Positions 10,183-10,810 of a DNA stretch of 32,579 nt are shown here, piece after piece (position 1 is the stretch's first letter; each line of letters opens with the position of its first letter). The DNA is from Fulvivirga lutimaris (GTDB taxonomy: Bacteria > Bacteroidota > Bacteroidia > Cytophagales > Cyclobacteriaceae): the NCBI RefSeq assembly GCF_009711525.1, contig NZ_SMLV01000423.1, forward strand, positions 1 through 32,579, read 5' to 3'. The notes under the pieces were generated by a model. The model was not told the origin of the DNA and did not search any database. It saw only the letters and a program-made list of their open reading frames with translations. A program made the position numbers and the translations under genes.

Positions 10183-10211
10183 AGGTGCTTCACATAAGTT
10201 TATGGATTATT

Positions 10212-10258
10212 GTTACCCGAAGCTTGTCGATTTTGTCATCCTGAGCTTGTCGAAGGAT
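10212..10258 (+). repeat. Left two-copy block of the CTTGTCGA repeat
   Basis: A degenerate half-copy (GTTACCCGAAGCTTGTCGA, 10212-10230) is joined by TTTT to a full copy (10235-10258: GTCATCCTGAGCTTGTCGAA then GGAT). Bases 10221-10258 are identical over 38 bases to 10656-10693 on the other side of the nuclease gene. Confidence 0.85.
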
Positions 10259-10300
10259 CAAAATCATTCAAACCAAATGCCCTTCGACAGGCTCAGGGTG
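10237..10300 (+). repeat. Long imperfect inverted repeat (hairpin) behind the TPR gene
   Basis: The left arm CATCCTGAGCTTGTCGAAGG (10237-10256) and right arm CCTTCGACAGGCTCAGGGTG (10281-10300) pair over 20 positions; the two non-Watson-Crick positions become G-U pairs in RNA. The loop is 24 bases. It is 54 bases past the TPR stop and could protect or end that transcript. There is no T-run, so it is not a classical terminator. Confidence 0.75.
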
Positions 10301-10328
10301 TCATTTGATTTGAATTAAGCATCAATTA

Positions 10329-10625
10329 ATGGCTATTCTTCAACCATATACTGTTTATATTTTGAAATGCTCTGACAATTCATATTATGTTGGAGTTACT
10401 AATGACATTGACAGAAGACTGAAGGAACATCAGGAAGGTTTAATCAAGGGCTATACTTCTTCAAGACGACCATTAGAGTTAGTTTTTACTGAACATTTTC
10501 AAGAAGTAAATCGAGCTATTGCTTTCGAAAAACAAATTAAGGGATGGCGAAGAGCAAAGAAAGAAGCGCTAATCAGTGGAAGTTGGCATTTGTTACCGGA
10601 GCTTTCAAAAGCATATAAAAAGTAA
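10329..10625 (+). CDS. GIY-YIG family nuclease (UPF0213-like), linked to palindromic repeats
   Basis: Single-domain GIY-YIG protein of 98 residues, typical for the small bacterial family. The first motif is TVYIL with Tyr10, the second YYVGVT with Tyr20 and Gly22. The RRLKEH segment supplies the conserved Arg29/Arg30 and His34, followed by YTSSRRP (42-48) and the metal-binding Glu67 in AIAFEKQIKGW. The active site therefore looks intact, and a metal-dependent DNA-cutting activity is plausible from the family. The ATG at 10329 follows the stop of the TPR gene by 146 bases that are mostly repeat. The same palindromic repeat lies on both sides, which suggests that the nuclease acts on, or spreads with, the repeat in the way RAYT transposases relate to REP sequences. 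The role in this cell is not known. Confidence 0.85.
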   Translation: MAILQPYTVYILKCSDNSYYVGVTNDIDRRLKEHQEGLIKGYTSSRRPLELVFTEHFQEVNRAIAFEKQIKGWRRAKKEALISGSWHLLPELSKAYKK

Positions 10626-10646
10626 TCGTCTTAGTATTCTCGAGCT

Positions 10647-10693
10647 ATCATCCTGAGCTTGTCGATTTTGTCATCCTGAGCTTGTCGAAGGAT
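10647..10693 (+). repeat. Right two-copy block of the CTTGTCGA repeat
   Basis: One copy (ATCATCCTGAGCTTGTCGA, about 10646-10664), then TTTT, then a full copy ending in AGGAT (10669-10693). It is in the same orientation and order as the left block at 10212-10258, with 38 identical bases. It begins 21 bases after the nuclease stop. The remaining bases to the next gene at 10811 hold no recognisable feature. Confidence 0.85.
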
Positions 10694-10810
10694 ACATTAT
10701 TGTACCCTTTCACCCAAAACCTTACATAAGTGTGAACATCAGCATTTTAGATTGACAAATGCACTTTCCTTTTTCGTTCAACCGGTATAGAGCACTGGAG
10801 GCAACTTAAA

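Follow-up and report, generated by a model that had tools for sequence, protein, structure and literature searches.

What is a small GIY-YIG gene doing between two identical stretches of palindromic DNA? The question was raised by a locus in Fulvivirga lutimaris, for which a first-pass annotation had proposed a unit resembling RAYT/REP systems, in which a GIY-YIG nuclease takes the role of the Y1 transposase, and a possible target-site duplication at its ends. The window analysed here is the whole stretch of 32,579 nucleotides in which the locus lies (contig C103:1-32579); the genome comprises 4.86 Mb in 436 contigs and is 98% complete, and the relatives of the window, judged by tree and by search, are Bacteroidota. 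From the comparisons described below we consider it likely that the product of the gene, P0001, acts as the cognate nuclease for the tagged hairpin surrounding it, and that gene and repeats together form a small mobile module of the RAYT/REP kind.

The gene and its flanking repeats

By reading of the sequence, P0001 appears to be flanked by one TPR-like gene and by P0002, a small gene resembling that of a nuclease. The features of the locus, and one more distant copy of the repeat, are the following:

1264-1288, + strand: lone related repeat copy, AGTC-ATGCT-CAGCTTGTCGA-AGCAT, with the compensated stem ATGCT/AGCAT
10206-10218, + strand: ATTATTGTTACCC, left half of the supposed target-site duplication, overlapping a degenerate repeat copy
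10210-10230, + strand: degenerate, truncated repeat copy upstream of the gene, overlapping the supposed target-site duplication
10234-10258, + strand: full repeat copy upstream, TGTC tag, stem ATCCT/AGGAT, loop GAGCTTGTCGA
10280-10303, - strand: inverted repeat copy, stem CCCT/AGGG, loop GAGCCTGTCGA
10329-10625, + strand: P0001, putative GIY-YIG nuclease gene, 98 aa, PF01541 (E 2.3e-20), conserved residues present
10645-10665, + strand: truncated repeat copy downstream, tag-side half
10669-10693, + strand: full repeat copy downstream, identical to 10234-10258
10696-10707, + strand: ATTATTGTACCC, right half of the supposed target-site duplication

The open GIY-YIG frame claimed between the repeats was confirmed. 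Its 98-residue product matched PF01541 with an E-value of 2.3e-20; a weaker match was to T5orf172 (25.5 bits, cut-off 20), and the same Pfam search gave none to Y1_Tnp. The GIY/YIG, Arg, His and Glu conserved in the GIY-YIG superfamily are all present. In an alignment of 34 sequences (P0001, L099 and 32 of the best 80 named relatives) Y10, Y20, G22, R30, H34 and E67 were invariant, and these presumably include the catalytic residues. The solved structures nearest to P0001 by sequence are the UPF0213 proteins 1zg2 and 1ywl. P0001 is likely to be a DNA-cutting enzyme, and we refer to it as a putative nuclease.

The repeat is a tagged hairpin, TGTC-ATCCT-GAGCTTGTCGA-AGGAT, present on either side of P0001. 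As the first-pass annotation had stated, 38 bases are identical and in direct orientation on the two sides of the gene (10221-10258 and 10656-10693), and the internal order is the same in both, a partial copy followed by a full one. The inverted copy at 10280-10303 had been overlooked. It pairs with the upstream + strand copy over 20 bp, and this 20-bp hairpin is contained in the DNA fold of 10206-10320 (z -3.73), whereas the downstream flank alone did not fold above shuffles (z -0.17). The core CCTGAGCNTGTCGAAGG, allowing up to three mismatches, occurs five times in the window, compared with 0.18 expected from 100 shuffles. It was also correct that the repeat is found elsewhere in the window, in the form of one related copy, 1264-1288, in which the stem is compensated. 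A search of the window with Rfam at gathering thresholds yielded no family. In the host genome there are four exact copies of the core, three of them at P0001, and ten copies with up to two mismatches versus one in the control; the repeat has hardly spread in the F. lutimaris genome.

Association of gene and repeat among relatives

A first search for relatives returned 22 loci, 17 of them with an ORF (L102, L105, L117, L119 and L120, where none was recovered, were left out), and 13 reached a flank score of 14, including L109, whose ORF was misassigned. A scan of named genomes yielded 109 relatives of P0001, and the best 80 of the 109 were analysed with the motif GAG[CG]N1-4[CG]TCGA combined with a paired outer stem. 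Motif density in these 80 loci was 6.0/kb within 125 bp of the gene and 0.037/kb beyond 500 bp, an approximately 160-fold difference within the same loci. The motif was present within 500 bp of the gene in 65 of the 80 loci, on both sides in 43, and four matches were located within the gene. Another repeat, with a score of at least 14, is shared by the two flanks in eight of the 15 loci that have no motif at this distance. Since the motif had been derived from the same loci, it was judged against distance, against the reversed-sequence control, which gave 0 matches, and against loci of Y1 genes, of which 1 in 32 had it.

Another measure of the association was the presence of a common repeat in the 250 bp upstream and the 250 bp downstream of a gene (score of at least 14), with other ORFs of the same loci as control. 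Such a repeat was detected for 58 of 79 GIY-YIG genes, L079 having been dropped because of its missing upstream flank, and for 11 of 317 other ORFs (MWU p 1.6e-26). Both the enrichment and the flank counts bear out the first-pass expectation that the repeat should be concentrated near genes of this family. A generic detector of a tag followed by a 7-bp hairpin gave a weak signal (14/76 versus 37/369, p 0.047; four of the 80 loci with short flanks were dropped), because the stems in the 80-locus set are short; for this reason the loop motif was used instead.

At the level of whole genomes the link was modest: of 17 genomes with a P0001-like gene, 7 had at least four copies, as did 7 of the 41 lacking one (n=58). 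Two genomes, G010 with 21 copies and G034 with 23, have no GIY-YIG match to P0001 at E 1e-10. In the 21 genomes that were selected because they have the gene, the motif was always present, in 2 to 152 copies (control 0). The 25 and 24 motif matches of G004 and G006 lie largely on one strand and are partly clustered a few hundred bases apart, and they may be coding repeats rather than REPs.

Structure and orientation of the repeat

Pairs 2-4 of the outer stem were Watson-Crick in 89% of cases when one repeat per locus was counted (63 distinct), compared with a mean of 45% and a maximum of 53% after shuffling and with 27-35% for slid pairs. The corresponding values for all 147 distinct flank pairs were 85% and, shuffled, 43%. 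These figures indicate that the stem of the repeat covaries.

Among known palindromic repeats, the CGTC REPs have a tag that reads CGTC, TGTC or CCTC, a stem opened by A-T, stems of 8-9 bp and loops of 4-5 nt, and are arranged mainly as head-to-head dimers (Di Nocera 2013, PMC3733652). In 154 window-type repeats the tag was TGTC (101), CGTC (16), GGTC (11) or AGTC (10) in the commonest forms; 117 of the 154 thus begin with TGTC or CGTC, as in CGTC REPs, and the GTAG tag of RAYT/REP systems is not theirs. The first base of the left stem arm is A in at least 144 of the 154 and is paired with T in 73, and an A-T first pair is also seen in hairpins such as ATTCCTG..CAGGAAT from other subfamilies and from plasmid-record loci. 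The outer stem of the window type is 4-5 bp and its loop mostly 11-12 nt. The window type therefore resembles the published CGTC REPs (PMC3733652) in its tag and in the order of its dimers, but its stem is shorter and its conserved loop longer.

The copies lying innermost usually point their tags outward, upstream in 46 of 59 cases (46:13) and downstream in 41 of 48 (41:7). Among the pairs within 60 bp of each other listed for G068, 11 were by eye head-to-head, one tail-to-tail and one direct. Head-to-head order thus predominates across loci, as in CGTC REPs, but not in the window itself, where the innermost copies are in the minority orientation (upstream -, downstream +) and their tags do not face outward.

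GIY-YIG subfamilies and their repeats

The host genome carries seven GIY-YIG genes. Four of them, L003, L004, L006 and L007, have a repeat on both flanks (scores 35-62), in each case unlike that of the window, and the palindrome pattern of the L007 type occurs four times in the genome, three times beside the L007 gene. When the flanks of six host paralogs were compared with each other (L005 was left out), 0 of 15 pairs had a score of 15 or more. Pairs from different genomes did have common repeats, L003/L116 at 72% protein identity (score 32) and L007/L114 at 62% (score 25). There were exceptions: L003/L101 scored 25 at 42% identity, L107/L114 scored 20 at 49%, and L099/L116, which belong to one genome, scored 15 at 40%. 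As flanks within the host are unlike and those of close cross-genome pairs alike, with these exceptions, the repeats mostly, although not always, follow the nuclease subfamily.

With the L007 protein as query, a second subfamily was found in 55 of 98 genomes of the family, the host's own included. The search returned 30 loci, of which 27 were scored (no ORF was recovered for L196, L198 and L208); the 27 include the host's L007 gene (L181) and, once more, the locus of L114 (L191). Hairpins shared by both flanks, often of the form CGTC-AT...AT-GACG, were present in 24 of the 27, a figure judged against the control of the P0001 set (11/317) and not against ORFs of the same loci.

The two host genes L005 (C234:4751-4984) and L008 (C241:26925-27158) are located at tRNA-Ser and tRNA-Ala genes. 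At L008 a copy of the 3' part of the tRNA lies on the opposite side of the GIY-YIG gene, and at L005 a tRNA-like stretch is repeated on both sides.

Loci outside Bacteroidota

Eighteen loci were hand-picked from 60 of 73 plasmid records, L145 being left out because of its broken frame. In eight of the 18 a repeat was common to both flanks (Methylobacterium, S. meliloti, Novosphingobium, Azospirillum, Rhizobium, Shinella, N. gonorrhoeae and Planktothrix), and in the Sinorhizobium, Azospirillum, Rhizobium, Shinella, Novosphingobium and Neisseria genes hairpins are shared across the gene. The sequence directly before the hairpin was CGTC in five of the 18 loci and CCTC in a sixth; CGTC also stands there in many loci of the second subfamily. 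Stems of 8-9 bp with loops of 4-5 nt were observed in the Rhizobium, Shinella, Azospirillum and Neisseria loci.

Six other loci encode YazA/UPF0213-like proteins, the housekeeping type to which 1zg2 and 1ywl belong. These share domain and size with P0001, but they form a clade of their own (support 100/92, in a tree of 102 columns with many forks without resolution and a root for drawing only), and no repeat was common to both of their flanks. In the remaining four, one flank of L137 and of L162 carries repeats or palindromes, both flanks of L147 carry long palindromes that do not match each other, and L148, where the gene contains a stop, has neither repeats nor palindromes in its flanks. In the flanks of L163, from a Planktothrix agardhii plasmid, a hairpin was not found; a strong direct repeat lies on both sides (score 76), and the GIY-YIG gene has a type IIL restriction enzyme on one side and a DISARM gene on the other.

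Occupied and empty sites

Among 15 same-genus genomes, the TPR gene and P0002 were located next to each other in 13, in a survey that leaves out G003 (L132) and G002 (L134). The gap between them holds a P0001-type gene in two of the 13 genomes and lacks it in 11; the loop motif is present in both occupied gaps and in 0 of the 11 empty ones. One of the empty gaps, that of G010 (L122), 353 bp long and without a GIY-YIG gene, holds a different palindrome family.

The same gaps decided the fate of the supposed target-site duplication. The first-pass annotation had read ATTATTGT(T)ACCC outside both ends of the unit as possibly such a duplication, a fit to which would be an empty site retaining the sequence. 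The left copy (10206-10218), however, overlaps the degenerate repeat copy at 10210-10230, which is 71-81% identical, in register, to three other copies, and ATTATTGT was absent from 11 of 11 same-genus empty gaps as well as from the gap in G011, the second genome with an occupied site. On these grounds the duplication was rejected.

Similar differences in occupancy were observed elsewhere. In Azospirillum lipoferum the gene and its REP dimers lie between sufB and sufC, and four Azospirillum relatives, 90-97% identical where the sequences match, lack both the gene and a CGTC REP at this place; the empty gap of Azospirillum B510 contains another inverted repeat, of a non-CGTC type. The Azospirillum, Shinella and Sinorhizobium comparisons yield presence and absence only, with no clean or sharp junction and no target duplication. 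In seven Chryseobacterium loci the unit is situated between murG and murC (genes named by sequence reading). G007 (L100/L115), whose gene is identical to L026 of Fulvivirga sediminis, has the gene unit with its repeats twice in tandem, 980 bp apart. The distribution is patchy: a P0001-like gene was found in 16 of 57 relatives and the second subfamily in 54 of 97, the own genome left out, and 3 of the 80 relatives (best 80 of 109) have an internal stop in the gene. The repeat also occurs without the gene. Among 12 hand-picked gene-free stretches of one Flavobacterium genome, 11 hold a head-to-head dimer that starts with TGTC, ten of these 11 dimers end with GACA, and their sites are mostly unrelated.

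GIY-YIG is a homing endonuclease fold, and the putative nuclease could be a free-standing homing endonuclease that inserts into pre-existing REPs as landing sites, the REPs being spread by something else. Phage enzymes of the Seg/Mob type are likewise small, free-standing GIY-YIG nucleases of patchy distribution, but they home into an allelic site, whereas the subfamilies described here travel with multicopy hairpin repeats of their own. The repeats without a close gene in G010 and G034 agree with such an origin, and the position of L005 and L008 at tRNA genes, with tRNA-like pieces on both sides, fits an enzyme aimed at hairpin-forming sites. However, the empty Azospirillum sites lack the CGTC REP together with the gene, just as the 11 same-genus gaps lack the motif; the repeats therefore arrived with the gene there or were lost with it. 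Moreover, the gene-free dimers have the same tags-outward ends as the gene-bearing units, the repeat type mostly tracks the nuclease subfamily (with the exceptions given above), and the other candidate for spreading the repeats, the Y1 genes, had the motif in 1 of 32 loci. Taking these observations together, we regard insertion into pre-existing REPs as unlikely.

A still smaller probability attaches to the idea that the nuclease is domesticated and trims or controls REP hairpins, in genome maintenance or mRNA processing, with the nearby repeats serving as its own regulatory sites. Conservation of the catalytic residues would be explained by such a role, and hairpins on both sides could act on the transcript of the gene, but the patchiness of both subfamilies (16/57 and 54/97), the location inside the conserved pairs sufB/sufC and murG/murC (the latter by sequence reading), the tandem double copy and the internal stop in 3 of 80 relatives all resemble a mobile element.

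Comparison with known repeat systems

A search for Y1_Tnp, the domain of the IS200/RAYT class, gave 48 matches, all 11 genomes searched being positive, and 32 of the loci were examined. A coincidental proximity of ordinary RAYT-mobilised REPs to GIY-YIG genes, or one due to the accumulation of both in permissive intergenic regions, is very improbable: Y1_Tnp genes are indeed present in 11 of 11 genomes, including G010 and G034 with their repeats and no close GIY-YIG match, but the motif was within 500 bp of 1 of 32 Y1 loci as against 65 of 80 GIY-YIG loci (best 80 of 109), other ORFs rarely have a flank-shared repeat (11/317), and the tag is mostly TGTC/CGTC, not GTAG.

The likeness to RAYT/REP systems and REPINs lies in an enzyme gene flanked by short tagged palindromes, in repeat families that are specific for the enzyme, and in head-to-head dimers scattered as gene-free copies. 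The difference lies in the tag and in the enzyme: the gene beside the repeats encodes an HUH transposase of the Y1 type there and a GIY-YIG protein here. We regard the system as a REP-associated enzyme system with an unrelated enzyme. The first-pass proposal of a RAYT/REP-like unit with GIY-YIG in the role of Y1 has thus held in its main part, through the association (approximately 160-fold; 58/79 versus 11/317), the other subfamilies and some proteobacteria, and has lost the target-site duplication. Its terms self-contained and repeat-spreading would, for the unit in the window, go one step further than these comparisons, and it is likewise from sequence that we infer cutting and movement by the nuclease module.

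The preferred reading, that gene and repeats form a mobile module, extends to the whole protein family, which probably recognises its cognate hairpin and promotes the spread of that hairpin. The sequence comparisons show an association of gene and repeat, a covarying hairpin tagged with TGTC or CGTC, a usual tags-outward order with or without the gene, and patchiness; they also show partial subfamily specificity and an absence of such repeats beside the six housekeeping relatives. The protein may recognise the hairpin in its extruded state, where the DNA is single-stranded or cruciform (as in replication, for instance), and would cut at the tag or close to it. GIY-YIG enzymes presumably hydrolyse DNA with no covalent intermediate, and for this reason copying would proceed via host repair. 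Spread to new sites would follow a homing-like route of host break or gap repair rather than strand transfer by a transposase. Gene-free head-to-head dimers would then be non-autonomous passengers resembling REPINs, and the repeats may belong to the CGTC REP superfamily or be closely related to it.

Bacterial genomes commonly contain short palindromic repeats, and RAYT is the known enzyme for one superfamily of them. The CGTC REPs, which occur in Bacteroidetes, alphaproteobacteria, Neisseria (dRS3) and Rickettsia (RPE-4/6), among others, were said in 2013 to "apparently lack a dedicated transposase", and that paper reports no associated transposase gene (PMC3733652). No word beginning with GIY stands in its text. 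The repeats of the second subfamily, of the alphaproteobacteria and of the gonococcus match the description published there. The literature search covered open-access papers, preprints and most subscription papers being outside its scope, and among the papers listed none links GIY-YIG to such repeats; an earlier description of the pairing may exist elsewhere.

We are inclined, by a narrow balance of probability, to the broader view that what spreads the CGTC REPs is an overlooked and large family of GIY-YIG nucleases, every one of which has its cognate hairpin. A superfamily without an enzyme in 2013 (PMC3733652) would then gain a concrete candidate enzyme family. If true, REP systems would have arisen twice, with unrelated enzymes, and there would be a second, chemically different way of seeding a genome with REPs, a repeat mobility free of transposase and driven by hairpin cutting and host repair. 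The origin of the dRS3-type palindromes of the gonococcus and of the rhizobial palindromes becomes open to direct experiment.

For the latter, a S. meliloti record has 78 copies of its palindrome (control 0), seven of them within 1 kb at the gene. A 196-bp insertion in S. meliloti Ak57 contains a palindrome but is not a clean dimer. In the comparison of L211 with L212-L214 (Sinorhizobium M103 and S. meliloti Ak57), the palindrome dimer that lies left of the GIY-YIG gene has three copies in Ak57 and a single one in M103.
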